Origin: Candidatus Binatia bacterium
Lineage (GTDB): Bacteria; Desulfobacterota; Binatia; HRBIN30
Length of the DNA stretch: 64,000 nucleotides
Assembly (NCBI GenBank): GCA_937925685.1
Contig: CALAMI010000007.1
Span: 310,001-374,000 of the forward strand
Direction of reading: 5' to 3'
Shown: in pieces, positions 12,723-36,543 of the stretch
Position numbering within the stretch: position 1 is the stretch's first letter
Layout: every line of letters starts with the position of its first letter
Notes under the pieces: generated by a model
The model's database searches: none
What the model was told of the DNA's origin: nothing
The model's input: only the letters and a program-made list of their open reading frames with translations
Program-made: the position numbers and the translations under genes

Positions 12723-15700
12723 TTAACCCCTCGCGTCAGCGTTGCTCGTTGGAACCCAGTGGATGAGGACGTCGTGTTCGGCAGCGTCTCGAACCAGTGG
12801 CACCTGCACAGACCGTGCACGCACAACCAACGGCTGCCCATCGAGCCACGCCCGAGTCCCGACGGGCATTCCGTTGGCCTCAAGCTGCTCGAGACGAATA
12901 TGGTAAACATCACCCACGCCGGGCACGCGCCAGCGCAGACGAAACCCGGGCCAGTGAGCGGGAATCGAAGGGGCGATCGTAAGCATTCGACCTTGGTGGA
13001 GCGTGACTCCCAACAAGGTCTCGATCACCAAACGGTAAAGCCACCCCGCGGAACCGGTGTACCACGACCACCCTCCTCGGCCCACGTGAGGTGCAGTTCC
13101 ATAAAGATCTGCAGCAACGACGTAGGGCTCCAACTTGTACCTCTCCGCGCCAGCAAAACCGGCGCTGTGCTCGGTCGGCAATAGGTAGCGGAGCAGTTCC
13201 GTCGCTCGCTCGCGCATGCCGGCTTGAAAAAACGCTTGCACGACCCAAATCGCGGCGTGGGTGTACTGGCCGCCGTTTTCGCGAACACCAGGTACGTATC
13301 CTTTGATATACCCCGGATCTCGCTCCGTTCGGTCGAACGGCGGCGTCAGTAAACGAATGAGCTTTGCCTCCGAGTCCACCAGCTTCTCTTCGACCGCCTT
13401 CAAGGCACGCTCGGCCCGCGCCGGCGAAGCGACGCCAGACAACACTGCCCAGGCTTGTGCCAATGCGTCGATCTGGCACTCGGCATTTTCAGCCGAGCCG
13501 AGCGGGGTACCATCGTCAAAATACGCTCGGCGGTACCAAGCTCCATCCCATCCGTGCGTTTCCAAGGCACGGACGAGCTTCTCGCGGTACGCACGGTAAC
13601 GCTGCACCCGACGGTGGTCGCCGCGCTCCTCGCAAAGTGGCACGAAACGAGCGAGCACTTCAGCGAGAAAGAACCCCAGCCACACACTCTCTCCCTGCCC
13701 TCCGCGGCCAACACGGTTCATGCCGTCGTTCCAGTCTCCCGTTCCCATGAGGGGCAAGCCATGCGGGCCAGCGGTCAGGGACCGATCGATGGCCCGGCAA
13801 CAGTGCTCATAGAGCGTTGCTTCCTCATCACTGGTTTGGACCGCCAGGTAAGCCTCGTCTTCACCCGGTTGTAAAACGCGCGCTCGAACAAAGGGCCGAC
13901 GTTCGTCGAGGATGGCACGGTCCCCGGTGAAGGAGAGATACCAAGCCGTTACCATTGGAAGCCAAAGCAGGTCGTCGGAAAAACGTGTTCGTGTTCCTCG
14001 CTCCCAGGGCGGGTGCCACCAGTGCAACACGTCGCCTTCGGCGAACTGATGGGCTGCGTGCAAAAGGATTTGCGTCCTTGTCTGCTCAGGATGGCTCCAC
14101 AGCAGCGCACACGCATCTTGCAGCTGATCGCGAAAACCAAAGGCTCCCCCTGACTGATAAAAGGCTGAACGGCCCCACAACCGACAACTTGTCGTTTGAT
14201 ACAACAACCAGTGATTCACCAACAGGTCCAAGTCGGGCCACGGAGTTTCCACTTGCAAGTGCGAAGTGCGGCGCGACCAAAACTCCATCGTCTCCTGAAA
14301 ACTCTCGCACAGGGATCCCAGCCGCCGGTAGCGTTCGACGCACTCACGGGCTTCGCGTTCGTTTGCGGCCTCTCCCAAAAGCACTCCAGCCTCCCAGCAT
14401 TGTCCCGGCTCGAGCACGAATTCGCCCGCCAGAATCGCTGCTGGGTCGCGGCCAGCCCCGACCGGGCCATCCCGTACCCCTGGGCGCTGCAACATGTAGG
14501 GAGACTCCAACGAGCCCCTCAACCCGAGGAACCACACTCGATCCCCAGCCCCCGCGGTGCGTATCCACGGTGCGGCTGAAGCCAAAGCCGCAAATGCAAC
14601 GCGACCTTCGAACAACTCCACCTTGGGGTTGCGTGCCCGGAGAATTGCAGCATCGCGGTCGAAGTCCGTCACCACGTAGCGTCCCTCTATCCACGGCTCG
14701 GCCCCCAGAACTAAACGGTGATAGGCCCAAAGCGACAGTCTCTTTGGCTGCGAGCTCCGGTTCTCTAACTGCACCCAAAGAACCCGAATTCGGTCATTGG
14801 GGGGAACGAAACAGGTCGCTTTCAACTCCAGCTCCTCATGACGACTTTCCCACCGCGTGAAGCCTTGACTGTGAGTTACCGTGAACGTTCCAGGGCCGCA
14901 CGGCGCAGGCAGAAACGACCAAAATTCACCCGTGCTTTCGTCCCGCAAATACAGGCACTCGCTCGGTGGATCGACCACAGGGTCGTTGGACCAGGCAGTG
15001 AGGCGAAACTCCCGACTGTTGTGACTCCAGGTGAAACCAATGCCCCGTTCCGAAACTAGGCAACCAAATTCCGGATTGGCAATGACGTTGACCCACGGCA
15101 TTGGCGGCAGACGACCATCGGCAAGGTGCACCACATATTGTCGCCCGCCGTCTCGAAACCCTCCAAACCCGTTCCAAAACTGGAGCTGAGCGCCCCCTCG
15201 ATCGTCGGGCGCGCTGCCAAGCAGAGGCCGCTTTTGTTCGTACAGCCGCGGTCTACGTCCGCTTCCGCGAGGGTTGTGCTTGTCGCACCCGTCCGCCAAT
15301 GCCAGCAACGCCCCGTATTCCCTGTGCGACAAAGTCGTGGTGCCGATGCTACCGAAAGCCTCTCCCACAGCCCGTCGCACCGACACCCCGTCGTTCGACC
15401 CCCGAGCAAGCACGACATCGATCGGTAGACCTGCGTATTGCCAATAACGGCTTACCGTTTCCCACTGTGACGCTCCCTCGTCATCGGCGGCGATAAAAAG
15501 CCGCCGGGAAGGCTCCAATCTTAGGCGCGCCTGCACGCTAGATGCGGTGTCCGCCTCCATAGTCATGCCGGTGCGTAAACTCGGGCTCCCATAAAGAAGC
15601 GAAACCGCCACTCGCTCCGCTCGCCTCACCTCCCTGAATTGCAAGCCGGCGCTGCCCATGAGTTGTCGATGCGCGACCCGTGCCCCACCGATGCTGATCT

Positions 15701-16550
15701 GGCGTTGCTGGTCTTCCCCAGCCGTGCGCGACACCTCCGGCACGCTTGCTTCCTCGCCAGCCACACCGCAGACGAACTCGACGTCTACGATCTCACCCGG
15801 TTGCAAATGCAGCACTTTCCGCATGCATAAAACAGGGTCGAGCACGTTGCCCACCGTTCCCGAGAGTGGGCTCGCAGAGCCAAGAGCGCGGGGGGCTCGC
15901 AGATCGCAGCCACGGCCGAGGAAGGATACGCGGTCAGTTTCGTACTCCACCGCGGCGTCCCCCTTGCTGACAGCAAGAAATAAGATGGGCCACTGTTCCT
16001 CGGCCGAACGCGGCCGACGACGAGCCAGAAGGCAAGCCCTCTCCGGCAACCAAGATGTTTGGACAAACAGTTTGGCGAATGCGGGATGCGCGCGGAAAGC
16101 AGCAGGGGGGAATAAAACCACTTCCAGGTAGGTGGTGACATCGAGATCGAGCGAACACTGGGAAACGTTGCGAAGCCGCAACCAGCGGTGCTCTTGAGGC
16201 AGCTTGGCATCGACCCACGCTGTCAACTGCGAGTCGATTTCCGCAGTCCGGCACTCGATCACCGCTGCACCTAGACACCGCCGGAAGCGATACTGCGCAT
16301 CGGCGCGGGGCCACGGCGAGGGCACAGGCGACCAAGTGCGGCCCGTAGTTCGGTCGCGCAGGTAAAACAGCCAGCCAAGTACGTCGTCGACAACATCCGG
16401 CTGCCAGCCGTAAGTTTGCAGCCACTCTCCGTGCGACCGGAAAAATGCGCCGCCGGTACCATTCTCGGACAGCAGACTCCAGTAGTGCCCGTTCGAGAGC
16501 ACCGCTCCTCGTGGACTTGCCTTGACTCGCCGACTCGGTCCCCGCTTCAC
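12723..16550 (-). CDS. GH94 phosphorylase, cyclic glucan synthase C-terminal type
   Basis: A 1275-residue protein with two GH94-type beta-sandwich segments (about residues 10-390 and 450-720, each opening with an SNGHYWSLLSENG- or NPEFGCLVSERG-like strand) and one (alpha/alpha)6 catalytic barrel (about 740-1150). GTGDWNDGMN puts the general-acid Asp near residue 942, and GGQYTHAAIW follows. This equals the C-terminal half of NdvB/cyclic beta-1,2-glucan synthase and also matches the size of 1,2-beta-oligoglucan phosphorylases. The membrane GT84 part is absent and no signal peptide is seen, so a cytoplasmic phosphorylase is most likely. Its GTG start overlaps the stop of the preceding gene (GTGA), showing translational coupling. 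Confidence 0.8.
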   Translation of the reverse strand: MKRGPSRRVKASPRGAVLSNGHYWSLLSENGTGGAFFRSHGEWLQTYGWQPDVVDDVLGWLFYLRDRTTGRTWSPVPSPWPRADAQYRFRRCLGAAVIECRTAEIDSQLTAWVDAKLPQEHRWLRLRNVSQCSLDLDVTTYLEVVLFPPAAFRAHPAFAKLFVQTSWLPERACLLARRRPRSAEEQWPILFLAVSKGDAAVEYETDRVSFLGRGCDLRAPRALGSASPLSGTVGNVLDPVLCMRKVLHLQPGEIVDVEFVCGVAGEEASVPEVSRTAGEDQQRQISIGGARVAHRQLMGSAGLQFREVRRAERVAVSLLYGSPSLRTGMTMEADTASSVQARLRLEPSRRLFIAADDEGASQWETVSRYWQYAGLPIDVVLARGSNDGVSVRRAVGEAFGSIGTTTLSHREYGALLALADGCDKHNPRGSGRRPRLYEQKRPLLGSAPDDRGGAQLQFWNGFGGFRDGGRQYVVHLADGRLPPMPWVNVIANPEFGCLVSERGIGFTWSHNSREFRLTAWSNDPVVDPPSECLYLRDESTGEFWSFLPAPCGPGTFTVTHSQGFTRWESRHEELELKATCFVPPNDRIRVLWVQLENRSSQPKRLSLWAYHRLVLGAEPWIEGRYVVTDFDRDAAILRARNPKVELFEGRVAFAALASAAPWIRTAGAGDRVWFLGLRGSLESPYMLQRPGVRDGPVGAGRDPAAILAGEFVLEPGQCWEAGVLLGEAANEREARECVERYRRLGSLCESFQETMEFWSRRTSHLQVETPWPDLDLLVNHWLLYQTTSCRLWGRSAFYQSGGAFGFRDQLQDACALLWSHPEQTRTQILLHAAHQFAEGDVLHWWHPPWERGTRTRFSDDLLWLPMVTAWYLSFTGDRAILDERRPFVRARVLQPGEDEAYLAVQTSDEEATLYEHCCRAIDRSLTAGPHGLPLMGTGDWNDGMNRVGRGGQGESVWLGFFLAEVLARFVPLCEERGDHRRVQRYRAYREKLVRALETHGWDGAWYRRAYFDDGTPLGSAENAECQIDALAQAWAVLSGVASPARAERALKAVEEKLVDSEAKLIRLLTPPFDRTERDPGYIKGYVPGVRENGGQYTHAAIWVVQAFFQAGMRERATELLRYLLPTEHSAGFAGAERYKLEPYVVAADLYGTAPHVGRGGWSWYTGSAGWLYRLVIETLLGVTLHQGRMLTIAPSIPAHWPGFRLRWRVPGVGDVYHIRLEQLEANGMPVGTRAWLDGQPLVVRARSVQVPLVRDAAEHDVLIHWVPTSNADARG

Positions 16551-19500
16551 AGCCTCTGCTCCGGTGCGAACGACAGTTCCACCTCCGCGGGAATTTCCGC
16601 AACGCGAACTTCGTGCCCGTCGAAGTCCGTTGTCGTCTGGCCGTTAACCCGCACCTCTCGCGGAGGTGACGGGAAGGGCAATTGTAAAACTACTTTGCCT
16701 GGTGGCATTTGCAGGTCGCCGCTGAGGTGGATCCTCCAGGTTGAGGATTCGGCAACTCGAGCACGGAAATGCAGGATGCCGTAATGCGTTGGCAGCCTTC
16801 GAAATCCTACGCCAGCTTGAATCCAAGCTGGCGGCAGCCCGGCTCCTACGACCAATGCCGCATCTGCGGTTCGCTCGTACACGAACAAATGACGCACCGC
16901 TTCGATGAATAGGGCGCTAATCCAAGCGTGGGGCATGTCGCCAATGAAACGCGGCCACAGAACATCACGCCACACAATCTCCGGCCACTGCCGCCACAGC
17001 AAAGGTCGGCGATCGCGCATCAATGCGTTGAGCACTTCCAGCGCCTGCGCGCGCCTACCCAAACGCACGAAGGCAGGCACATTGCGTAGTTCGTAAGGGG
17101 TATACGAGTCCCACGGCTCCACGCCTGCCAGCCGTGCCTGGAAAATGGCCCAGTAGCGCTCGAAGGTGCGTTCGACCATTTCGCTCGGGAGAGCCGACAC
17201 GACATCGACGGGATAGAGCGCAATAGCAGTGGAGTTCGGGTCGAAATCAGCCAACTCCACGGAGGCTGGTAGGTAATCGAGCCCGTGCCGCCCGGCCACT
17301 GCGAGCAACGAAGCTTTCAAAGTAGAACGAAAATCATCCCGAAGCAAAGCCCAACGAGCGGCAGTTTCCAGTTCGCCCATCACCGCCGCCAGACGGGCCG
17401 CGTCGTCCAATCCCCGTAGCGCCCAGAAGTCATCCCAATAGGAGTGAACAGGCCGCGCGGCATAGCCTTCGTGACTGATCGACTCGGGCAGCAAGCCGTA
17501 GAACGGCCGCTTGTCCTCACGGCGATACTCCTCGGTCATGCGTTGTGCTCGAGCACGCTCGATCCATTCCACAGCAGCCTGAACTTGGGGCCATAACTCA
17601 GCCACCAGCCCGACGTCGCGGGTAAAGCGGTAATACTCGGCGACCAGAAAGAGAAATTGCCCATTGCTATCGTGCTCCGGCACCGGGTCAGCCCCACGCC
17701 AATCGACACAACATGGGATTCTTCCGTCGGGGAACTGGTATTGAGCAAACCAACGGGCGAACGCCCTTGCTTCAGCCGTGGCTCCGAGCTGAAGCAAGGC
17801 TGTAGCCATGGTCACACCGTCGCGAATCCACGACCGTGCGTAAGTGCGTGGACCCGGCTGTAGCGCTGGGCCTCGTTGGTTCATGAGGATGTGCGCCATT
17901 GCGCTGCGCAACGTGGCGTCGATCTCTCTTGCCTCTTCGGGCAACTCGAACTCCACTCGACCAAGGGTGCTTTCCCAACTTTGCCGGGCACGCTCGCGCT
18001 GCTGCTGGTAGAAAGTCTCGGCCCCGTCGGTGGTCAACTGCAACGGACCGACGTCCGCGGCATCCCACGGAAAGGCAAGGTAAACTGCTACCTTTTCGTT
18101 GGGGCCCAAGGTCAAGTTGTACTCGAGGGCTCCTGAAGCGTAACCCAAAGGGTCAGCAACCTGGACACGAGGCGGGAGCACCCCGCGCACGAGAAAGTCC
18201 ATCACCATTCCTTCATCGAAGTACGCTGCCCCGAACCGGGCACCGGGAGTTTGCACGATGATCGCCGGCTTGCGGTCCACCCAAATCGTCCGTGAATCGA
18301 AAGCCAACTCTCGCACCGAGGTTACACCGCCAACCAAATTCAGGTTCTGCCACGGGGGCAACACTTGGAACGGGCGGATTACGAGGAATAGGGAAAACCC
18401 TGCTGGTTCAGGCGAACGGTTTTGGAGCTCGTAGCGGGCAAAGAAGGCACGTGCCGCGTCGCTGCCGCCAGCAAACATTTCCACCTGCAGACGAAACCAC
18501 TCGTGCTCCCAGTCGACACGGGGAATCGGCACGGCCGCTCCGTATGTATTTGGCGCCGTCTGCACTTGCCTCCAAGTAAACAACCTGCCGTTACGATACA
18601 CGAACGGCTCTAAGGAATACCCACCGGCCAGCGGCTCGATGGCGCCATCGTTGCTCAACAAAGCTTGTCGGCCGCCGCTCGGCGGGGCCACCGTGGTCCA
18701 GTATACCTGCTCGGGGACGAAATAGCGCGGATACAACCCTGGCGGCGCTTCGCTGGCCAAGGCTGCAAAGAACGCGTTCGGAGAGGCCGCAAGTTCGTAC
18801 GGCTTGACTGCCAGGGAGCGAATGGCGTAGCCTTGCCCACGGCTACTCCGCTCCATTTCGATCCGCACCCATCGTGATTCCGCTTCCCCTGTCGGAATGT
18901 AGTCGCGGCCTCCGTTTCCATGCTCGCTCGTAAACAAGGCCCACCAACGCTCCCCGTCAGCGGAAGCCAACACGCGATAGACGACAGCGTAATCGATCGG
19001 GTCCCAATCGATCACGATGGCGCCATACTCCTGCAAGGTTTGGAAATCGATTTGTAACCATTGCCTCGGCGCCAACACTCCGCTGCGCCACGCGGTTTGC
19101 GGGTCGGTATCGATGACCGCTTCGGGGGGAGCATCCGGAAGAGAGGTCGAGGCCTCGACGCGTGGCCGCGGGACTCGACCTTTTGCCGCCCGACGCGGCT
19201 CCCAAGTGAGTTCGTCGAGCCACAACGAACCGCGGCCACCCGCGCCGGCCGCGATCGCAAACTCGATGAACCCAACCTCGCTAGGCTGTGTGGTTGGCAA
19301 ATCGCCCCAAGCAAACTCCACCCGCACGTCGCGAATGGTGAGCTGGCGCCACTCGGCCGGAAAGTGACACGGTCTTTGCCGATACCACCAAACATTTCGC
19401 CCCGACGGATCCACCAGCTTGAACTGCAAGTCGTTGGGCGGGCCGTCGCCACGCAGCCACACTTTGAAGGCGTAATTTTTGGGCAGCTTGATCCGTGCCG

Positions 19501-19756
19501 CTTTGCGGACGATGACGAAGCTTCCTCCGGGCTGGATATCGAAGTCAATGCGGAGAGCTTTACCGAGCACGCCTTCATCGATCGAGAGTTCCACGTGAGC
19601 GTTCTGCGAAGCGTGTGTCGTCCAACCCTCGAGCGACTCGAAACTTTCCACCGTTGTCTGTCCCCAGGCTGCCCCAGCGAAAACCAGCCACCCGAACCAC
19701 GCCACCGTTTGCCCCCACACCCACCAAAGCCAGACTCGTTGCGCGCGACACCACAC
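16547..19756 (-). CDS. Secreted F5/8-type and six-hairpin glycosidase-like protein
   Basis: About 1069 residues if the GTG at 19756 is the start. A signal peptide (VWLWWVWGQTVAWFGWLVFAGAAWG) precedes a beta-sandwich of carbohydrate-binding style (about 38-190, WLRGDGPPNDLQFKLVD), then an F5/8 (discoidin) domain at about 196-326 (EAVIDTDPQTAWRSG, WVRIEMERS). The C-terminal region, about 640-1000, is an (alpha/alpha)6 barrel with RSWIRDGVTMATALLQLG and SYWDDFWALRGL. Such proteins act on extracellular glycans. The frame stays open to 20062, but that extension has no signal-like start and approaches the divergent acyltransferase gene. The GTG has no clear Shine-Dalgarno site, so the start is weak. 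It is co-transcribed with the GH94 gene. Confidence 0.75.
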   Translation of the reverse strand: MWCRAQRVWLWWVWGQTVAWFGWLVFAGAAWGQTTVESFESLEGWTTHASQNAHVELSIDEGVLGKALRIDFDIQPGGSFVIVRKAARIKLPKNYAFKVWLRGDGPPNDLQFKLVDPSGRNVWWYRQRPCHFPAEWRQLTIRDVRVEFAWGDLPTTQPSEVGFIEFAIAAGAGGRGSLWLDELTWEPRRAAKGRVPRPRVEASTSLPDAPPEAVIDTDPQTAWRSGVLAPRQWLQIDFQTLQEYGAIVIDWDPIDYAVVYRVLASADGERWWALFTSEHGNGGRDYIPTGEAESRWVRIEMERSSRGQGYAIRSLAVKPYELAASPNAFFAALASEAPPGLYPRYFVPEQVYWTTVAPPSGGRQALLSNDGAIEPLAGGYSLEPFVYRNGRLFTWRQVQTAPNTYGAAVPIPRVDWEHEWFRLQVEMFAGGSDAARAFFARYELQNRSPEPAGFSLFLVIRPFQVLPPWQNLNLVGGVTSVRELAFDSRTIWVDRKPAIIVQTPGARFGAAYFDEGMVMDFLVRGVLPPRVQVADPLGYASGALEYNLTLGPNEKVAVYLAFPWDAADVGPLQLTTDGAETFYQQQRERARQSWESTLGRVEFELPEEAREIDATLRSAMAHILMNQRGPALQPGPRTYARSWIRDGVTMATALLQLGATAEARAFARWFAQYQFPDGRIPCCVDWRGADPVPEHDSNGQFLFLVAEYYRFTRDVGLVAELWPQVQAAVEWIERARAQRMTEEYRREDKRPFYGLLPESISHEGYAARPVHSYWDDFWALRGLDDAARLAAVMGELETAARWALLRDDFRSTLKASLLAVAGRHGLDYLPASVELADFDPNSTAIALYPVDVVSALPSEMVERTFERYWAIFQARLAGVEPWDSYTPYELRNVPAFVRLGRRAQALEVLNALMRDRRPLLWRQWPEIVWRDVLWPRFIGDMPHAWISALFIEAVRHLFVYERTADAALVVGAGLPPAWIQAGVGFRRLPTHYGILHFRARVAESSTWRIHLSGDLQMPPGKVVLQLPFPSPPREVRVNGQTTTDFDGHEVRVAEIPAEVELSFAPEQRL

Positions 19757-20025
19757 GCCGTCCGTACTTACGCGATTCTCGCGGCTGACTCCACCGCAAA
19801 CGGAGTGCAGTCCACTCGCCACCACCGTCTTACCGCTAACCGAGTGCGCAGCCCTTTGGAGTGCGGCGGCCATGTGACCGCATGCGGGCGGTAGAACCAC
19901 AAACCGAGTGCAGCCCACACCACCAGCCGATCGCATCGCTGACGCAATGGGCGCGAAAGCATGGCTTTGGCACTCCATAGTCGACTTTCGCGAGCAAGAT
20001 TTGGATGTTACCCCTTGCAGCAAAT

Positions 20026-21561
20026 ATGGAAGGCAGCCGGACGCAACGCCGTCGCGACCCACTGCTGGACGTTTGGCGGGGCTTGGCCCTTGTCGACATG
20101 GCGTGGGTGCACCTGGCCCTGTACCCTATCGGCATGCCCGATGCAGTTGCGCAATGGATCGGGCAACACACACGCTTTGCCGCTGGTACGTTCGTGTTGG
20201 TGTCGGGCATTGCAGTGGCGCGCGCGTTCGGCTCCTCGCTGCTCGAGCGCTCACCTGCGGGAGTCGAGGCACGGTGGCGACTTATGCGACGAGCAGCGCT
20301 GTTGTTCCTCCTCGACCGGATTGTGGGCGTGCTCTTTGTCTTGCTGGAAAGTTTCCGCCTCTCCGCACCCGAGCTAACAGCACGTCTACCTTTGATTTGG
20401 GATCTGTTGCTGTTTCGTCTCCCTGGTGTCACGGGCGGACTTCTCTTCCTGTACAGCTTACTCTTGCTGGCGACTCCCGCGATGGAATTCGTCAGGCAGC
20501 GCTGGGGTGGCCTAGTTCTCGTCGGGCTCAGCGCAGCGGTTTATACGCTCGGCTATAGCCTGAGCTCGGGGAGCAGTAATGCCCAGTGGCCTTTCCCGTT
20601 TGCTTGCTGGCAGCCATTGTTCGTGCTCGGCTATCTCGGCCCGCCGTGGTTTGCACGTATCAGTGCGGGCCAGGCTCCTTGGCGGTGGTTTGCAGCCATC
20701 GGGGCGGCCTTCGCAGTGGTCTTTCTCCTGCGCAACGGTTGGGCCATCGGCTTCCCCGCTGAGATCACGGCACGTTCCTGGTTCGTCAAGGTACCGTTGT
20801 CGCCAGCGGAACTCGCTTGGTACGTGCTGGCGTCGCTCGTGGTGATAACGCTGAGCTCCGCGAGCTGGCACCACTTCCATAGCACTCGTCCGCTCTGGGG
20901 CCTTTTCGAGCGGCTCGGTCGCAAGAGCTTGGTGGTGTATGTGGCGCATTTGCTCCTAGAAGTGCCGTTGCTCGAAACCCTCACACTGCTCGATCCCGCG
21001 CCGCTGGTGCGAACGGCGGCGTTGCTGTGGATGGCAGGTGCTTTATTCGTCGTTGCGGTCGGCGCCGAAGCACTCGACCGCTTGCTGGAACACCACCCGT
21101 GGCTGTTGCCCCGCGAGGTCACGTTCACGGTGAGGATCCCACGGGGCCTGGCGGTAGGGGCGGCCGTCGCAGCAGGGGCGGTTAGCCTCGTGGTTGCGAC
21201 CCAGCGCCTTCTCGGACCTGGGATTGCTGCGTCTCCCCGCGAATTTGTCGCGGACGAATACGAACATCCCGGAGGTTCCGGAGACGCAATCATTGTTGTG
21301 GACGAACCACTGGAAGGTGAGACAACGATCGAAGATGCTGCGTTGGAAGATCAGCCTTCCCCAGAGCCACCACTTCCCGCGCCGTTCACGGAGTCATCTC
21401 TGGACCAGCCGCTCCCCCTTCCGCCCGAACTTCTCCCCATGGAAGAAGTCGGGGCGGAACTGCGTGTCCGCCCGGGAGCGGTACCCACACGGCACCATTC
21501 AGGTTACGATCCGCCGTGGCAGTTGGTCGTCGAAATCGTCGTAACGACAGCTGTAACCTAG
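20026..21561 (+). CDS. DUF1624/YeiB-like membrane acyltransferase family protein
   Basis: A 511-residue polytopic membrane protein. The N-terminal RDPLLDVWRGLALVDMAWVH matches the RxxxlDvlRGlai opening of the heparan-alpha-glucosaminide N-acetyltransferase/DUF1624 group. About ten hydrophobic helices follow to residue 410. It probably moves an acyl group onto an extracellular sugar or polymer. Residues about 415-510 form a Pro- and Glu-rich tail (QPSPEPPLPAPF, LPLPPELLPMEE) unlike the rest of the family and likely disordered. The ATG at 20026 begins the conserved region. The 3' end overlaps the convergent gene at 21499 by 63 bases. Confidence 0.7.
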   Translation: MEGSRTQRRRDPLLDVWRGLALVDMAWVHLALYPIGMPDAVAQWIGQHTRFAAGTFVLVSGIAVARAFGSSLLERSPAGVEARWRLMRRAALLFLLDRIVGVLFVLLESFRLSAPELTARLPLIWDLLLFRLPGVTGGLLFLYSLLLLATPAMEFVRQRWGGLVLVGLSAAVYTLGYSLSSGSSNAQWPFPFACWQPLFVLGYLGPPWFARISAGQAPWRWFAAIGAAFAVVFLLRNGWAIGFPAEITARSWFVKVPLSPAELAWYVLASLVVITLSSASWHHFHSTRPLWGLFERLGRKSLVVYVAHLLLEVPLLETLTLLDPAPLVRTAALLWMAGALFVVAVGAEALDRLLEHHPWLLPREVTFTVRIPRGLAVGAAVAAGAVSLVVATQRLLGPGIAASPREFVADEYEHPGGSGDAIIVVDEPLEGETTIEDAALEDQPSPEPPLPAPFTESSLDQPLPLPPELLPMEEVGAELRVRPGAVPTRHHSGYDPPWQLVVEIVVTTAVT

Positions 21562-22303: not shown

Positions 22304-23629
22304 TCACCCGGGGCAGCCGTGCAGGAGGTTACCGACCGACTTCACGACTTCGTCGACACTGGCTTGCCGGTCCCCGCTCGAGTCGGCAGCCAGGCAACGG
22401 TCTGGCGGGAGAAGTTCCAAAACAATGTTGACCGCGCGGATCACTTCGTCCACCGTCACCGTGCCGTTCGCATCGCAATCCCCGACGCAAGGTATTCCCG
22501 CTCGGCAACCACCGCGCACGATCTCCGGCGGGGCAAAGGCCGCAGTCGATTCCGTTCTCCCGAGTTCGGCCGCCAAATCGGAACTCCACACCACCAGCGC
22601 CCCCCGCATCGAGGCCACGACCCAGTTGCGCTCCGGACTTACTCTCAACCACCCGACGCACCGCTCCGTAAGCTTTGTCGCCAATGTTTCCAAGGCAGGC
22701 AACGACACTAGCGAAACTCCACACCCGTTCGCTCCTTCGTTGCGCACATACACGGCGAGCGCGTCCGCGCGATCCAACAGCGCCAGCGGCTGTCCGCCGA
22801 GTTCCAGCGACGCGGTATGCTGCCCACGGGCGCCGTCCACAACCTCGAGTCGTGACTGCCCCGCACGCACAAGGTACACCTGATCGAGCCCGTCGACACC
22901 AACGATCCGATAGTGATAGTCCAACTCGGGGCGCTCGGCTCGGGGCAATTCTGCCGCGCCCAGCGTCTGCGCGGACTCCAGGTCGATCACCGCGAGCCAT
23001 TGCGAGGAACCGACCGAATCCCCATTCTCCCAATCCGCAGAATACGTTGCGTATACCCGGTCGCCACGAGGCGAACTCGCTAACGAAGCTACAAAGCCCG
23101 GGACGGGAATCGTGTGGCGTATCGTCCCCGTAGACACGTCGTAAACCACTATAAGTGGCTCCGCATCGCTAGCCACCAGTACCTGACCACCACCCGCCAA
23201 CACTAATTCGAAGGCACGAAAGGGTAACCGGCCGCTCGGCCGTACGGCGGCGGCATCGACCACCACCACGGAAAGCGGATCCTCAGGCTCCCCCATCAGC
23301 GGCCACATACCGAACTGGCGAACAGGCCGGTAAATGCGAGAGACCGGACACCACAGCCACCGCCCATCTTCGGGCCCAACGCAGCTTCGAGCGCTGAAAT
23401 CCCACGCTGGCACCACCGGGATTCGGTAGCGAAACCGTGCCTCCGGCAAGTCGATCGCACTCAGAGTACCGCCCGGCCCGTCAGGCACATAACCGCAAAA
23501 TTCAGCCTCTGCCACCGCCGATGCATTCCATGCGACGAAGAGAAACATTGCGCACGCGGACAAGTATGTCGCCAAACGCACAACCTGCGCTTGAACCTTC
23601 GTGCCCAACAGCGAGCTTGACCGGGCCAT
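22304..23629 (-). CDS. Secreted beta-propeller protein with dockerin-like C-terminus
   Basis: About 441 residues from ATG 23629. A hydrophobic N-terminal segment (ATYLSACAMFLFVAWNASAVA) precedes a mature part with repeated strands such as VLVASDAEPLIVVYDVSTG and DRVYATYSADW, typical of YVTN/Lactonase-like seven-bladed propellers. The last 60 residues contain two EF-hand-like repeats, GDCDANGTVTVDEVIRAVN and DSSGDRQASVDEVVKSV, ending in CPG: a dockerin-like or type-I EF-hand pair expected to bind calcium. An upstream TTG at 23689 is possible but has no ribosome site. It is the second gene of a minus-strand group of secreted proteins and shares its C-terminal module with the subtilase. Confidence 0.65.
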   Translation of the reverse strand: MARSSSLLGTKVQAQVVRLATYLSACAMFLFVAWNASAVAEAEFCGYVPDGPGGTLSAIDLPEARFRYRIPVVPAWDFSARSCVGPEDGRWLWCPVSRIYRPVRQFGMWPLMGEPEDPLSVVVVDAAAVRPSGRLPFRAFELVLAGGGQVLVASDAEPLIVVYDVSTGTIRHTIPVPGFVASLASSPRGDRVYATYSADWENGDSVGSSQWLAVIDLESAQTLGAAELPRAERPELDYHYRIVGVDGLDQVYLVRAGQSRLEVVDGARGQHTASLELGGQPLALLDRADALAVYVRNEGANGCGVSLVSLPALETLATKLTERCVGWLRVSPERNWVVASMRGALVVWSSDLAAELGRTESTAAFAPPEIVRGGCRAGIPCVGDCDANGTVTVDEVIRAVNIVLELLPPDRCLAADSSGDRQASVDEVVKSVGNLLHGCPG

Positions 23630-23725
23630 TGCGCTGCTCGCGATTTCAGTCCGTGGGAGCGAATAAGTCAAGCATCGTTTGGCACCCAAGGCTCATCCAC
23701 CTCGTGGCAACGATGCCGAAAGGGC

Positions 23726-24442
23726 TCACGTAACCCCACTAGCACCTACAGCGCAGCCCGTGAGAGCGATGTTGGTGCCGGTCAGGAGCTCATCGGTGGT
23801 AACTACGCCATCCCCAGTAGCATCGAACGAGGGGCAGGCGGTAAGGGGCAGTGTACCGAGGGCAATAGCCACGCCTGCTTCTAGTTCCTCAGTGAGCACG
23901 CTCCAGTCGCCATTGCAATCACCGACCGAGTTCGGCCTGGTCAGGGTGGCAGCATCCAGGTTCAACCGTGGGAAGCGGAGGCCGTTGCGGTGGTCGGTAA
24001 TCGCGTCACCGGTCTTCACCATCCTGGCGATTGTACAGTCAGCGGAATCGAGCCGGAACCTACCTTGGGTGCGCAGCGCCGCAACCGCTCCAGAAACGTG
24101 TGGAGCGGCTTGCGACGTACCCGCGAACGAGAGTCCGGCGAAGTTGACGAATGCGCCTGGGCCGAGGAAGGTGAGAAAAAACGCGCTGTTGGAAAAACAT
24201 ACCACCTGGTCTCGAGCGGGGTTTCCATCTTCACAGGCCCTCCACCGAAAAGTACGCGAGAAGTCTCGGTCATACACCGCACCGACGCGAACCACCCGCG
24301 GAATGCATGCCGGGTCGTTAACGCTGTCTGTCCAGCCATCGTTACCCGATGCGGCAACAACAATGCGCCCTCGCCGACGCAAGTCTCGAATTGCCGACGC
24401 TAGATTCGAAGCCGGACACGGCTCACGAGCCTGCCCCCCCAA
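23726..24442 (-). CDS. Subtilase (S8), C-terminal part after frame break
   Basis: The downstream piece of a split subtilisin-like protease. VVAASGNDG carries the oxyanion-hole Asn and FAGTSQAAPHVSG the catalytic Ser. The final 70 residues form a dockerin-like double EF-hand (GDCNGDWSVLTEELEAGV and DATGDGVVTTDELLTG). It begins in the G7 tract where the N-terminal piece ends, and reading one base fewer there joins both pieces into one normal subtilase. As sequenced it would not be made on its own unless ribosomes or polymerase slip at the tract. It is the same gene as the feature at 24423-25562. Confidence 0.75.
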   Translation of the reverse strand: MGGQAREPCPASNLASAIRDLRRRGRIVVAASGNDGWTDSVNDPACIPRVVRVGAVYDRDFSRTFRWRACEDGNPARDQVVCFSNSAFFLTFLGPGAFVNFAGLSFAGTSQAAPHVSGAVAALRTQGRFRLDSADCTIARMVKTGDAITDHRNGLRFPRLNLDAATLTRPNSVGDCNGDWSVLTEELEAGVAIALGTLPLTACPSFDATGDGVVTTDELLTGTNIALTGCAVGASGVT

Positions 24443-25562
24443 GGCTCAAGTTCACGGCGACGATATTGTACCGTCGCCAATTGTCCCGGACCCACTGCAA
24501 GCCGCTAATGATATCCGGGTCGTCCGCACCCGCCTGTTTAAACACATCCACCGCGACAATGCCCGAAGCTGGCGCTACGGTCGAGGAAATTCCGGCCACG
24601 TTAGTCCCATGCTCCGGGCCCTCCTCTTCGCCTTCCCGATCTCGGGCAGCATCGAAGGTAGCGACGATGGCGCAACCGGGTGCACCCACGCCGTTGGCGC
24701 AACCGTCCCCGAAGGCAAGCGGTCCACCGGGATAGGCGAGACGAAGGTGGTCCACCCAGCTATCGAGAATCGCTACGCTCGCGCCCGTGCCGTCGAAACC
24801 GCGGCCCAAGGCTGCCGGCTGGCCGATGAGCGGGAGACTTTCAGCGAGGGTAGGCGAGTAGATCTGTGGATCGTGAACCGCGGTGACCTCAGGTAAAGAC
24901 AACAGGTTCATCAAGGATGTCCCGTCGCCCAGGTACAGGCGCAGCTGGGGAAAGCCGCGAGGTTTGGAGAGAACGATAGCACTGGAAGCGGTCAGTCTTT
25001 GTACTACGGCATCCTGCAAGCGCCTCACCGCCGTGTCGTAAGCAGCTTCAGCCTCTTCACTATCCCACTCGTAGCGAACGAGGTCCCGCACGCGCTGGCG
25101 CGCCTGCCGCACAGCGGCATAGTCGTCGAGGGTAACCAGGACCACCGCTGGCAGCCCGCGGGCGAGTCGTGCAGTTGCGTGCGGTGGGGGCGTTTTCTCT
25201 CGCTTCGCTCGAATCGACTCAAGCTTCCAGGAAAGGGCAGTCCCATCGACCAGGGTCAGTTCGCCTCTCACACCCTCGGCTCCGAAGGCACCCCGCAATT
25301 TACCCAAGCGAGCAATGGTTCCCGTTCGAAAAAGGGAGCCCTGTTGGATCACTCCTCGAGACCAAGTTGCCAACAAATTGGCCTCCGCCAGGGATGGAAG
25401 ACCCGCGAAACTCACGCGCCCGCTGATGGCCCCGTTGCCGTCGATTCCCACCACTGCGTGCCACCTTCCTTGCTTTTCCGCAGTGGACCAGGACCCCTCG
25501 GCGACGAACTCGAGCGGTTGCGCAAAGGCCCGGGCAACCATGCACGAAAGCATCATCGCCAT
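24423..25562 (-). CDS. Subtilase (S8), N-terminal part before frame break
   Basis: The upstream piece of the split protease. A signal peptide (MAMMLSCMVARAFA) is followed by a beta-rich domain, then a prodomain (LVTLDDYAAVRQARQRVRD onward, like inhibitor I9). The catalytic domain begins with Asp in VAILDSWVD and His in PEHGTNVAG, continues through NLSLGG and stops four codons later at the G7 tract (24434-24440). The frame is also open upstream to 25898 and merges with the end of the cohesin-like gene without a stop, so the ATG at 25562 is chosen by its signal peptide only; no Shine-Dalgarno site is visible. Product expected in periplasm or medium. Confidence 0.7.
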   Translation of the reverse strand: MAMMLSCMVARAFAQPLEFVAEGSWSTAEKQGRWHAVVGIDGNGAISGRVSFAGLPSLAEANLLATWSRGVIQQGSLFRTGTIARLGKLRGAFGAEGVRGELTLVDGTALSWKLESIRAKREKTPPPHATARLARGLPAVVLVTLDDYAAVRQARQRVRDLVRYEWDSEEAEAAYDTAVRRLQDAVVQRLTASSAIVLSKPRGFPQLRLYLGDGTSLMNLLSLPEVTAVHDPQIYSPTLAESLPLIGQPAALGRGFDGTGASVAILDSWVDHLRLAYPGGPLAFGDGCANGVGAPGCAIVATFDAARDREGEEEGPEHGTNVAGISSTVAPASGIVAVDVFKQAGADDPDIISGLQWVRDNWRRYNIVAVNLSLGGAGS

Positions 25563-25610
25563 CGTCCAAGCAGGCGCACACGACCCGAACAGACGGCAAC
25601 ATCGAAGTAG

Positions 25611-26270
25611 CTTCTCCCTCCCCCGTCTGAAAAAAGCCAAGCTCAGAAGAGCTCCTACCACGAAAGCCGGCCACCGGGCTCCACCATTGCCACTGCCACC
25701 CGGAACCACTGCGCAACCTCCTCCGCCTGCTGGAGGTGGTAAAACCTCTACGGCACCGTTCGCACCCGAAGCCACGAGCGAAATCCCGCCACGGGCTGCA
25801 GCGTCGGCATCACGGAGTTCCACCGGATAGCTGCCCGCGGCGGCGTCAGCTGCGATCGCGACCTTACATCGAAATAGCTCGCCTGCGGGCAGATCGGGTT
25901 AAGTGCCTGAAACATCGACAGCAAGGATGCGGAGCGAGTCGCATTCATCTTCCTCGTAGATACAACCCACGGGCCAGAACACAAACGCAGCTGGCGTGCC
26001 TACATTTGCGGTGACGCGACAGTCGGGCTTGCCATCCGACCGCGCCGCGATCTTGACGCTGCGAGGATCGGAGAAAAACAGCGTCGCACCCGCTGAGGAA
26101 GGAGCCGTACCGGTGACGCGAACGGCCACCGGTAGCTCCACGATCCAGCCCGGGTACCCGCTCGTCTCGCCCGCATCGATCCACACCTGTGCTGCGCTCG
26201 GAGCAACAAGAGTGACCAGAAGAAGTCCCACCCGCATTACAGCAAACGGCCGTCGCACCCGTTGGATCAT
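25611..26270 (-). pseudogene. Cohesin-like surface protein gene with in-frame stop
   Basis: ATG 26270 follows GGGAGGCGTCTC and encodes a signal peptide (VMRVGLLLVTLVAPSAAQ). Residues after it (GYPGWIVELPVAVRV, ATLFFSDPRSVKIAAR, AFVFWPVGC, LRILAVDVSG) match a cohesin-like beta-sandwich. A TAA at 25899-25901 interrupts it. The same frame then resumes the expected fold (LPAGELFRCKVAIAADAAAG) and ends with a Gly-Cys stretch (PPPAGGGGC), a TM helix (WPAFVVGALLSLAFF) and RRGREK, a C-terminal surface-sorting tail of MYXO-CTERM style. Either the gene is disrupted or the stop is a sequencing error or is read through. There is no stop after the tail: the frame runs on into the subtilase. Confidence 0.6.
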
Positions 26271-26631
26271 GAGACGCCTCCCTGATAAATCTCGCACTTA
26301 ATAGTGTGACTTCTCTCGGAACAAGTCGGACACCGCGTGTCCCCACCACAAACCTCGCAGGTATCGCCGCAGTCTGCGGGTGCACCCTAAACCCAAGCAG
26401 CGCTTCACGAAGCCTTGGCACTTGTTTCCCTCTCGAGGTGCCCGCCTTCTGCGTCCGCGACAGGGCCACGGGAATCGCCAACGGCGCCGGGCCCATGCTC
26501 CGCGCCCGACTCGGCCAGGTTCGCACAGTGGCTCCCCCCTGTAGCACCATTGGGCCTCGCAGCGGCCCAGCGAAGGAGAATACCAGCAGCGGCGTTGCTC
26601 CAGACCTGCCCTACGGGCTAGCTTGAGGAGC
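26271..26631. other. Divergent intergenic region, 361 bp
   Basis: It separates the minus-strand cohesin-like gene from the plus-strand HD hydrolase, so it must hold promoters for both. No convincing promoter pair, operator or RNA structure could be assigned by eye. A GAGGAG ribosome site lies immediately before the HD gene. Confidence 0.5.
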
Positions 26632-27900
26632 ATGCTCATCCGCGACGCAGTCCATGGCGACGTCGAGCTCGACAAGCTGCAAACGGCGATCCTCGATTTG
26701 CCCGTTTTGCAACGGCTCCGCGGTATCAAGCAGCTCGGCACTGCCTATCTCGTTTACCCAAGTGCAGTGCACACCCGCTTCGACCACTCGCTCGGCACCT
26801 GCGCGGCCGCCCAGCGATTGTTGAGCACGCTGCGAACGCGCCATCCGCAACTCGTCACTCCAAGGCTTGCCAGCCTCATTGGCGTTGCAGCGTTGCTGCA
26901 CGATGTAACGCACGTCCCCTTCGGTCACACCTTCGAAGACGAGCGACGACTCTTCCCACGGCACGACAAGGGCCAACGTTTGGCACTGCTCCTCGAGGGC
27001 CAGCTGGGAGAGGCTCTGCATCGACTCAGCATTGCCGAGCCCATGGAGGAACTCCTCGGGGTACGTGGCCACCGCACGACGCCCCCCTGGGCGCGACAAA
27101 TCGTCTCCAGCACCATCGACGCCGATCTCCTCGACTACCTCCGTCGCGATGCGTACTTCACCGGGCTGGCGCAGCGCTACGACGAGCGCGTCTTCCACTC
27201 GTTCGACATCGTCGACGATCAGCTTGCACTCGCCATTACACGCCACGGCATGCTCCGTCCGGATGCGTTCTCCGAGATCGTGCAGCTCTTGCGCCTGCGG
27301 TATTTTCTCACCGAGCGAGTGTACTACCACCACACCAAAGTTGCCGCCGGAGCCATGATCTCCAAAGCCGTAGAGCTGGCGCAACAACAGGGGCGGCTCG
27401 GAGAAACCGAGCTCCTAGAGCTGCAGGACGCCACCTTGTTCGAGCAGCTGAAGCACATAGGCACCGGCAAAGAAGGGGATGCCAACATCGTTCGTTTGGT
27501 ACAGCGCCTCGAGCGACGAGATCTTTTCAAACGCGGCTACGTGCTTTCGGCCGCCCAACTCTCGCGTGCCGAGCGCTCGACTTTGGTGCGCCGCTATCAT
27601 GAGTCGGCCAAGGAGCGGCGGCAAGCAGAAGAAGCGCTCGCTCGAGAGTTACGGTGCCAGGCGAGCGAGGTCGTCGTCTATTGTCCGGCACTGACCTCGA
27701 TGAAAGAGGCCACCGCGTTCGCGGTCACCCCAGAGGGTTTACGATCGCTCGACCAGTACGACGGTAGCGGAGAGATCGCGGCACTGCAGCGGCGCTACGA
27801 AGAACTATGGCGATTTTATGTCTTCGTGCCCGCCGAACTGCGCACTCCAGCAGCCGAAGTTGCGGCAGCTTACTTTGGCTATCCCAGCGAGCACCGCTAG
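26632..27900 (+). CDS. HD-superfamily phosphohydrolase (dNTPase-like)
   Basis: A 422-residue protein opening with IRDAVHGDVEL and PVLQRLRGIKQLG, both typical of the YwfO/SAMHD1-like HD family. The metal-binding His/Asp set is in HTRFDHSLGT (about residue 45) and LLHDVTHVPFGHTFED (about 90-105), followed by DADLLDYLRRD, the family's later Asp motif. The protein probably hydrolyses nucleotides such as dNTPs in the cytoplasm. ATG 26632 is preceded by GAGGAGC; a TTG three codons earlier is less likely. It is convergent with the HemQ-like gene, with 31 bases between stops. Confidence 0.85.
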   Translation: MLIRDAVHGDVELDKLQTAILDLPVLQRLRGIKQLGTAYLVYPSAVHTRFDHSLGTCAAAQRLLSTLRTRHPQLVTPRLASLIGVAALLHDVTHVPFGHTFEDERRLFPRHDKGQRLALLLEGQLGEALHRLSIAEPMEELLGVRGHRTTPPWARQIVSSTIDADLLDYLRRDAYFTGLAQRYDERVFHSFDIVDDQLALAITRHGMLRPDAFSEIVQLLRLRYFLTERVYYHHTKVAAGAMISKAVELAQQQGRLGETELLELQDATLFEQLKHIGTGKEGDANIVRLVQRLERRDLFKRGYVLSAAQLSRAERSTLVRRYHESAKERRQAEEALARELRCQASEVVVYCPALTSMKEATAFAVTPEGLRSLDQYDGSGEIAALQRRYEELWRFYVFVPAELRTPAAEVAAAYFGYPSEHR

Positions 27901-27931: not shown

Positions 27932-28756
27932 TCACAATAGGTGAAGCACAGTGGCCAGCCGCTCCGGCGCAAAGCGGATTCCCACGTAAAAGGAACCAAA
28001 CAAGCCGTACACGGCGCTCGCCTCGTCGTAACGCAGCTCGTAAACAATATCGCGAATGGCCTTGAGATCGCGAGAGAACAAGGTCACGCCCCACTCCCAA
28101 TCATCGATACCGGTGCACGTGGTGATGAGTTGGGTCACCCGGTCGGCAAATCGGCGTCCCGCCTCGCCATGTTGCAGCATGAGCTTTTTTCGCTCCTCGA
28201 AACTCAAACGATACCAGTTGTCCCGATCGCGCCGCGCTTTGCTCATGGGGTAAAAACACACGATGGGATAATCCTCGGGCAACTTGGGGTGGATACGCGA
28301 GTCGGCATAGATCGCCGTACGCTTACGCAACGCCGCAAAGCGCTGGGCAAATTCGGGGGCAGTTGGGTCGAGTTTCTGCTCTTCAATCAACAAGCGGGCC
28401 CAGTCGAGTTCGTTGGTAATGTACTCGCTCGCCTCGGTGAGCGAGAGAAATTGATAAACCGGCACCAAGCATGCACCGAGACCCGTGCCGGCAATCTGTT
28501 GCCCTAACTGCTGGATGCGCCACAAGTCTGGGTGAATGGCCATCACCCCGAAATCGAACTTCGTCACTCCGGCTTGGGGCACGAACTGCAGATCCGCTTC
28601 ATTCTCGACACGGGCAAGCCATGCCTGGAACTCCTCCACATGAGCCTCGCGGGCTTCCGCGCTTTGGCTGCGCCAGCGTGGCCGATGCAACCGATAAAAC
28701 AAATGCACCACCGGCCAACCTGCCGAGGGCCGCAAACCCTGAAGTGGCTCTGTCAT
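27932..28756 (-). CDS. hemQ: Chlorite dismutase-family protein, HemQ-like coproheme decarboxylase
   Basis: A 274-residue protein of the HemQ branch. CFYPMSKARRDRDNWYRL holds the conserved Tyr region, MLQHGEAGRRFADRV the probable heme-ligand His, and IDDWEWGVTLF plus FGSFYVGIRF the family's C-terminal signature. HemQ oxidatively decarboxylates coproheme to heme b with H2O2. ATG 28756 follows GGGAG at proper spacing; the open frame upstream to 28996 lacks homology-like sequence. No other heme-synthesis genes are beside it, so the function rests on family similarity alone. Clade-level distinction from other chlorite dismutase-like proteins is not possible by eye. Confidence 0.75.
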   Translation of the reverse strand: MTEPLQGLRPSAGWPVVHLFYRLHRPRWRSQSAEAREAHVEEFQAWLARVENEADLQFVPQAGVTKFDFGVMAIHPDLWRIQQLGQQIAGTGLGACLVPVYQFLSLTEASEYITNELDWARLLIEEQKLDPTAPEFAQRFAALRKRTAIYADSRIHPKLPEDYPIVCFYPMSKARRDRDNWYRLSFEERKKLMLQHGEAGRRFADRVTQLITTCTGIDDWEWGVTLFSRDLKAIRDIVYELRYDEASAVYGLFGSFYVGIRFAPERLATVLHLL

Positions 28757-29220
28757 CGCACAGATCTCCCGCCCCTTTTTGCTACCGTAGGCGGCCGAGT
28801 GCCGCAACGTAGGTGGAAACCTCACCGGCCGCGGCGGCGATTGCGCATCTCGCCCCTTGCGCTCCCAGCCACTGACCGTTGGCTGGGGTCGGGGGTTCGA
28901 GCGAACGGGTCTTCCGCCTCGGAGCCATCGAGACGAACAACCTCTCGAAGGCCGCACTTTCGGCGAACGCTGGACCCGGTGTCGGCACCAGTCCACGCCG
29001 CAACTGGATGCGACACCCAGCCTCTTTCCCGACTCTACCGTCCAAGAGTCGCTGCCATTGCCAGGGCAACCTGGCGCGAGTCGGGCGTGCTTTTTTTCCT
29101 GCGGTTGGTGCCCACCCCAGGAGGCTCGGGCCTAATCCCCGCCTAGTCCCGACCTAGGGAACGTTCCGCAACCTCCACCACCAGGCCGACTCGAACACGC
29201 GGCACGATGTTGCGACGGCA
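28757..29220. other. Divergent intergenic region, 464 bp, nothing recognised
   Basis: GC-rich sequence between the HemQ-like and methyltransferase genes. It must include promoters for both. Several short overlapping frames exist in it, none with recognisable domains or a ribosome site. Confidence 0.45.
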
Positions 29221-35817: not shown

Positions 35818-36543
35818 ACGGGAAAAAACCCACGGCGCTGTTCAGGCAAAGCGACCGCTCTTCCGGGCGTTGCAAACTCGGGTCCTCGGCAACGTTCGCT
35901 CAGGACAGCGCTCCCAAAAAGGAGACTGCTTGGCAGGAGCTGTCCTCTTTTAGACACATTTTTCCTTGTGCCTCGGCTCTGGAGAGATGGAACGATCCTG
36001 CGCCTGCGCTGAGCCCATGCTTGGCACCGTTGTTGCGCCTGCCCCAGTTATGATGCCATGGAGCGTGATCCGACCGCTACCTGCCTCCGTCACGAGCCAG
36101 ACCAGCCCCCTCCCTACGACCAGAGGCTCGGATCGGTCACGCCCATGGCATCGCGTAACGTTCCGCTGTCCCCTGTTGCTCCAACGCTCACCGGGCGCGA
36201 GCTCCTGTGAGGCTGGACAACCCGGTGCGGAAGGTGGCCCCCTTCCTCCATCTTCCGCACCTCCCTCCCTCGTGCCCTCTGCAAGCCAACAAGTGGTGGC
36301 GCGACCCAAACCAGAGAGGTCGGTGGGGTTCGGGATTCCTCACGGGGCGGTCGGGTCATCCGCATATATTTGCCGCGGCCCAAATGAGCGTAAGCGCAGC
36401 ATGTTTTAAAGGACAGCCCCGAAGAGAACGCAAGCGAACCATTGCGCGAATCGGCCCAAGCCGAAATCGCCACGCGTGCACGGCGCCTGCGTAATAAAAA
36501 GCACCTCGACAAAGTTCCTCCGCCGCAAATATCGGTCAAACCT
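35818..36543. other. Intergenic region, 726 bp, no gene recognised
   Basis: Between the TetR gene and the NHL-repeat gene. Both strands have short frames rich in Pro, Gly and Arg but without domain-like patterns or ribosome sites. No rRNA/tRNA signature or convincing terminator seen. The promoter of the NHL-repeat gene should lie near the right end. Confidence 0.45.

Follow-up and report, generated by a model that had tools for sequence, protein, structure and literature searches.

Cohesin-dockerin pairing is known from cellulosomes, in which type I pairs such as CaCohA2-CaDoc0917 of Clostridium acetobutylicum (6kgc) combine a cohesin fold with a dockerin fold. Non-cellulosomal proteins carrying these domains occur in ANME archaea and in their sulfate-reducing, Gram-negative partners; scaffoldin-like ANME proteins with up to 5 cohesins are reported, as are S-layer links in ANME-2c (PMC9012536, PMC10553843). 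A surface-sorting route has been described in Myxococcus, where MrtX cuts MYXO-CTERM tails and the proteins are then found on the surface; it combines a tail made of a Cys, a TM helix and an Arg-rich end with a CPBP intramembrane protease and type II secretion (PMC11980579).

The present analysis concerns a three-gene cluster in a stretch of 64,000 nucleotides, hereafter the window (contig CALAMI010000007.1, positions 310,001 to 374,000), from a genome of HRBin30, an order within Binatota (PMC8262859). With cellulosomal type I pairs, the HRBin30 proteins share cohesin and dockerin folds and, in relatives, multi-cohesin proteins; they differ in a cargo without glycoside hydrolases among the families listed, in four-cysteine tails with Glu at loop position 12, in MYXO-CTERM-type anchors and in a cohesin-tail pairing that is predicted. 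Like the ANME and partner proteins, they bring cohesin and dockerin domains together outside cellulose degradation, in Gram-negative hosts as in the partners, and include scaffoldin-like proteins, whereas the lineage is another one, MYXO-CTERM-type tails stand in place of S-layer links, and the families are present in 15/15 genomes of the order. The Myxococcus arrangement is matched by the tail layout, a CPBP protease and type II secretion; unlike there, the tails sit on cohesin proteins, the host belongs to Binatota, and the candidate protease, at 96.7 bits, misses the family threshold of 100 and falls far short of the equivalog ones. Among the literature matches listed, a set that leaves most subscription papers outside its scope, no report of an HRBin30-type system was found and none named 'dockerin' together with 'MYXO-CTERM'; the words 'dockerin', 'cohesin' and 'scaffoldin' are absent from the main text of the paper on Binatota genomes, as a term search showed.

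Layout of the window locus and identity of the cohesin domain

The three genes run on the minus strand from 26270 down to 22304, in the order previously proposed. Their features, with gene starts placed by inspection, are as follows.

25614..26270, minus strand: gene 1, predicted secreted cohesin-like anchor, interrupted by a stop; ATG start at 26270
25743..26162, minus strand: cohesin-family domain of gene 1 (profile A1, 116.4 bits, E 1.5e-33), with one TAA inside
25899..25901, minus strand: in-frame TAA within the cohesin domain, from frame reading; stop-free relatives at the same site exist
25614..25727, minus strand: C-terminal tail of gene 1 with a MYXO-CTERM-like layout (GGGGC, hydrophobic stretch, RRGRE)
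23726..25562, minus strand: gene 2, predicted secreted subtilase with a dockerin-like tail, in two frames
24438..24791, minus strand: N-terminal half of Peptidase_S8 in gene 2 (PF00082, E 3.2e-4, 20.6 bits, cut-off 21.8)
24434..24440, minus strand: run of seven G at the protease frame change of gene 2, from frame reading
24068..24409, minus strand: C-terminal half of Peptidase_S8 in gene 2, with the GTSQAAP motif (PF00082, E 2.3e-9, 37.4 bits)
23753..23926, minus strand: dockerin-like tail of gene 2 (tail profile and sequence)
22304..23629, minus strand: gene 3, predicted secreted protein with a dockerin-like tail, open frame
22313..22489, minus strand: dockerin-like tail of gene 3 (tail profile; fold model)

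Gene 1 reads as a signal peptide, the cohesin-like domain, GGGGC, a hydrophobic stretch and RRGRE. The Gly-Cys/TM/Arg tail attributed to it by the preliminary description is present in the sequence (25727-25614, coordinates assigned by hand); it does not score as TIGR03901 (MYXO-CTERM), its best NCBIfam match being JDVT-CTERM (E 0.62). Paired EF-hand tails close both gene 2 and gene 3. The propeller earlier assigned to gene 3 is a weak and unproven identification, its best matches being Phytase-like in Pfam (E 0.2) and NCBIfam entries at best E values of 0.0097-0.067, all far under the respective cut-offs.

Other genes of the window encode an OpgC-like acyltransferase (20005-21558, plus strand), a GH94-family protein (12726-16550, minus strand) adjoining one whose domains are of the F5/8-type C and hairpin glycosidase kinds (16550-19999, minus strand), a GH5 cellulase-family protein (8602-10113, minus strand), a chlorite-dismutase-family protein (27935-28996, minus strand) adjoining an HD-domain phosphohydrolase (26623-27897, plus strand), and an NHL-repeat protein of 1113 aa with DUF4215 at its end (36442-39780, plus strand). 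The tail profile lists only two tails in the window, neither of them on the GH5 gene.

Searches of the window proteins against Pfam and NCBIfam returned no cohesin or dockerin match at E<=1 (neither PF00963 nor, in either tail, PF00404), and phmmer comparison of the window domain with PDB gave nothing at the same threshold. The cohesin family becomes apparent only through profiles built from relatives. Profile A1, made from 28 relatives with the window copy left out, gave 12 matches in PDB at E<=10. The ten top-ranked ones are named as scaffoldins or as proteins anchoring to the cell surface (E 7.8e-9 to 0.13, five of them at 1.7e-5 or better), and the remaining two (E 0.94 and 1.3) are unrelated. 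PF00963 itself is matched at E<=0.1 by 10/28 of the A1 members, and at C24 of the window's genome two tandem domains exceed its cut-off (46.5 and 37.8 bits). For L105, a natural chain bearing both a cohesin and a tail, a model with pLDDT 90.7 was obtained, and all 50 PDB matches listed by Foldseek were cohesins (best E 1e-11). The cohesin-like character proposed for gene 1 is borne out by its A1 score, by the PDB matches of A1 and by the modelled fold of this relative, which together place the domain, by profile and by a relative's predicted fold, in the cohesin family.

Dockerin-like tails and their distribution across the order

The tails are roughly 60 residues long and hold two calcium-binding repeats of the loop-helix kind, as seen in alignments and loop counts, a helix being predicted after each loop in the model. 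Across 78 distinct tails from the examined loci, four cysteines are conserved in 92, 100, 99 and 97%; in the two loops position 1 is Asp in 76 and 73 and position 12 is Glu in 73 and 71, the latter position being usually Asp in dockerins. When one tail was used as query, 49 places were matched in the window's genome, itself included and one of them a half tail. Dockerin_1 exceeds its Pfam cut-off at 8 places in that genome, of which two (C28 and C5:123333) are among the 49, so six other dockerin-type places exist there.

Whether the tails are generic EF hands receives different answers from sequence and fold. In PDB the tail profile finds calmodulin-type EF hands, with no dockerin named among the best 60 of 309 matches, and EF-hand_1 matches 24/26 tails, against 8/26 for Dockerin_1. 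The model of the gene 3 tail (pLDDT 89.0), in contrast, is nearest to dockerins: these fill Foldseek ranks 1-20 (probability 0.99-0.54), with a best E of 0.12 that is weak and not significant, and account for four more of the 50 matches listed, the others having a probability of 0.14 or less; in VIA they take the first 25 rows (Z 6.7-2.9), ahead of a polycystin EF hand (2.7). On this predicted fold the EF-hand tails are divergent dockerins. Since Pfam calls most of them EF hands, ordinary annotation hides the system.

Used as query, the window cohesin domain has 8 matches in its own genome, itself included, and matches in 15/39 genomes, precisely the 15 of its order; with the 49 tail places, these 8 matches show that the likeness seen in the window exceeds chance. 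The preliminary description had suggested surveying related genomes, and at E<=1e-5 both families proved to be present throughout the order and absent from the rest of the class as sampled. Cohesins (profile A1) occur in 15/15 order genomes, with 6-34 each and 277 in total, and in 0/43 other genomes of the class; tails (profile A2) occur in 15/15, with at least 11-149 each and at least 1,157 in total, counts that may be low as the first 150 candidates were scored in nine order genomes, and in 0/24 other genomes of the class. Such numbers do not fit the 'small' system first envisaged. Cohesin and tail counts per genome rise together (rho 0.83, or 0.64 as a partial correlation controlling for genome size), among genomes whose relatedness means that the co-occurrence may reflect one event.

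Several architectures are found. Multi-cohesin frames, none of which lies at the window locus, carry seven cohesins in 1974 aa (G002, of the same genus as the window's genome), five in 967 aa (G001) and four in 948 aa (G003), while cohesin and tail share a single chain at C7:91k, C10 and C4 of the window's genome. Cohesin genes adjoin tail genes in the window, at C16 and C23 of the same genome, at C20 and C7 of G001, at C3 of G012, and in L094 (HR30), L095 and L103, the latter two from MAGs; in five of 17 loci (L097, L098, L099, L101 and L102) the stretch examined holds zero tails. The nine cohesin loci of the window's genome were used for an adjacency count, leaving out the three with a same-frame tail: a tail lies within 5 kb in 4/6 remaining loci, window included (chance 0.124 per point, binomial 0.003), or in 3/5 when the window is set aside (about 0.016 by hand). 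At C12 no listed tail lies within 63 kb of the cohesin; at C24 there are none of the 49 listed tails, and the tail profile finds one in an adjoining frame. One frame at C24 (L080, 4494-6899, plus strand) encodes a lipoprotein-like product of 802 aa that carries three cohesins in tandem; a weak-cohesin frame and then a tail frame follow.

A recurrent cluster, hereafter of the C16 type, consists of a propeller with a tail, a secreted protein of about 330 aa with a tail, and a cohesin anchor. Its frames are open at C16 of the window's genome, where an intact anchor-plus-two-dockerins cluster is found, and in L094, G012 C3, L103 and L095, the contig end cutting the last. FG-GAP repeats were checked in the L094, L103 and G012 clusters, likeness at the other loci being judged by eye. 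The protein of about 330 aa (L079, 6427-7416, minus strand, and relatives) appears by eye to be a divergent cohesin-type sandwich with a dockerin-like tail, and in its relatives Pfam finds nothing but EF hands.

Damage to the window cluster and its sister copies

Three lesions absent from the preliminary description affect the window copy: the TAA in the cohesin domain, the lack of any stop between gene 1 and gene 2 (the frame of gene 1 has zero stops from the Arg tail to the protease start) and the frame change in the protease gene. The PF00082 catalytic domain is consequently not contained in one open frame, its halves lying in two; the secreted subtilase reported earlier is upheld as regards the Peptidase_S8 matches and the EF-hand end, and not as regards an uninterrupted protease.

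Window-type clusters were read at five protease-gene loci in three genomes of the genus, and the protease gene is damaged at 5/5, with lesions that differ among loci. At C20 of G001 the cohesin is open, the protease has a frame change and a stop, and the third gene has a frame change and a stop within the tail. Cohesin and protease are each spread over several frames at C23 of the window's genome; the cohesin is truncated and the protease bears a frame change at C7 of G001; and at C14 of G002 the protease remnant is in pieces, the third gene is open (483 aa) and the closest cohesin gene lies about 8 kb upstream. The window's genome also holds, at C12, an open cohesin paralogue whose C-terminal tail has no Cys (L074, 5181-6059, minus strand), with zero protease matches at the locus.

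Between the window and G001 C20, dN and dS are 0.26 and 1.73 for the C-terminal half of the protease and 0.56-0.57 and 1.9-2.1 for gene 3, with dN 0.42 and saturated dS for the cohesin, and since synonymous sites are near saturation, dN below dS shows only that the frames were kept through much of their history. The C16 cluster of the window's genome has dN 0.12-0.17 relative to HR30.

The window cluster is most likely a recently decayed copy with broken anchor and protease genes, and probably a relic. The working display system first pictured at this locus is not supported, its anchor and protease genes being interrupted and its sister copies damaged as well; the window copy is probably no longer functional in the manner described.

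Anchoring, cargo and the proposed display system

Nine cohesin proteins were scanned for MYXO-CTERM (TIGR03901, cut-off 20 bits), which is passed by three (L094, 23.5; L079, 22.6; L103, 20.9), missed by three (L096, 19.4; L091, 17.5; L099, 16) and without a match in three (L073, L074 and L102). The window's genome encodes a type II secretin (570 bits, over cut-off) and three CPBP proteases, one of them close to myxosortases and under all curated cut-offs (MrtP 109.7/250, MrtC 100.1/195, Mrt_core 96.7/100).

The cargo scan covered 35 tail-bearing frames of the window's genome, some ended by locus limits. FG-GAP repeats (4), MtrC/MtrF-like cytochromes (2) and UnbV_ASPIC (2) recur, next to single occurrences of trypsin, matrixin, MauG peroxidase, lactonase, YCF48 and others; glycoside hydrolases are absent among 25 of 32 families listed. 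Near G000:C2:238390, L066 (1240-3183, plus strand) and L064 (1813-3183, plus strand) combine a tail with MtrC/MtrF-like multihaem cytochrome domains (71.2 bits); as they overlap on the contig, they are probably one gene seen twice, whose product is, to judge from its domains, a possible dockerin-borne electron-transfer protein, and a second tail gene at C2:237817 is divergent to it. At G000:C10:240343, L067 (1504-2958, minus strand) is a MauG-type di-haem cytochrome peroxidase with a dockerin-like tail.

We favour, at a probability of roughly 65%, an order-wide, non-cellulosomal cohesin-dockerin display in HRBin30, of which the window would hold a recently decayed cluster and C16 of the same genome an intact one. 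Anchor proteins that carry from one to seven cohesins, part of them with MYXO-CTERM-type tails, would be exported; judging from the tails and the analogy with Myxococcus, a myxosortase-like CPBP protease would then cleave these anchors, which would be kept on the cell surface. Many secreted proteins per genome, including proteases, FG-GAP propellers and multihaem cytochromes, bear the divergent, cysteine-rich dockerin tails and would bind the cohesins with calcium, a pairing suggested by co-occurrence and gene neighbourhood. The window cluster would then have comprised a cohesin anchor, a subtilase-dockerin and a third dockerin-tailed protein. What computation supplies is the identity of the families and their distribution; the pairing of cohesins with tails, its calcium dependence and the display on the surface are inferences. 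The surface-display idea of the preliminary description is well supported for the order, by the cohesin profile and fold, the gene 3 tail fold, co-occurrence, the clusters and some MYXO-CTERM tails, and is not supported for the window copy.

The lesions might instead be assembly or sequencing faults, the window copy being intact in the organism. The coincidence of the protease frame change with a run of seven G and the dN below dS in aligned frames speak for such faults; the meeting of three breaks at one locus (a stop codon within the frame, no stop from gene 1 to gene 2, a change of frame), the distinct damage that two other genomes show in this cluster type, and the open frames of the C16 cluster in the same assembly make them an improbable explanation. 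Somewhat less improbable, yet still unlikely, is that the tails are non-binding, calcium-stabilised EF-hand caps that aid secretion or folding, and that the cohesin domains are independent adhesive beta-sandwiches. The EF-hand-like tail profile and Glu at loop position 12 agree with that explanation, as does the single-chain model of L105, in which both modules are present with pTM 0.64 and a weak linker, so that it gives no sign of docking. Against it stand the tail fold nearest to dockerins, the strict co-occurrence of cohesins and tails, the repeated side-by-side placement of their genes, and the tail within 5 kb in 4/6 own-genome cohesin loci without a same-frame tail, at a chance of 0.124 each.

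A cellulosome or other polysaccharide-degrading complex could draw on the multi-cohesin proteins of relatives and on the GH5 cellulase-family gene of the window (8602-10113). That gene has no detected tail, and zero glycoside hydrolases appear in 25 of 32 families listed for the 35 tail-bearing frames; the cellulosome reading is rejected on this ground, the system not being a cellulosome on present evidence, and we regard such a complex as very improbable.

What the preliminary description noticed, through a broken example, is a real and little-described kind of system. A bolder extension of the favoured display, to which we would give even odds, is that throughout a whole Gram-negative order proteases, adhesive propellers and multihaem cytochromes plug into a general-purpose surface, with MYXO-CTERM-anchored cohesins as the sockets and cysteine-stapled dockerins as the plugs. 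This would be a counterpart of the cellulosome that is not cellulosomal and has an anchor chemistry of its own, and its protease clusters would be undergoing repeated loss in one genus. If the order-wide display is true, it would explain one tail common to at least 11-149 secreted proteins per genome, would supply protein assembly with new pairs that disulfides probably stabilise, and would carry cohesin-dockerin assembly into Gram-negative bacteria of an uncultured order whose surface anchor is of another kind.
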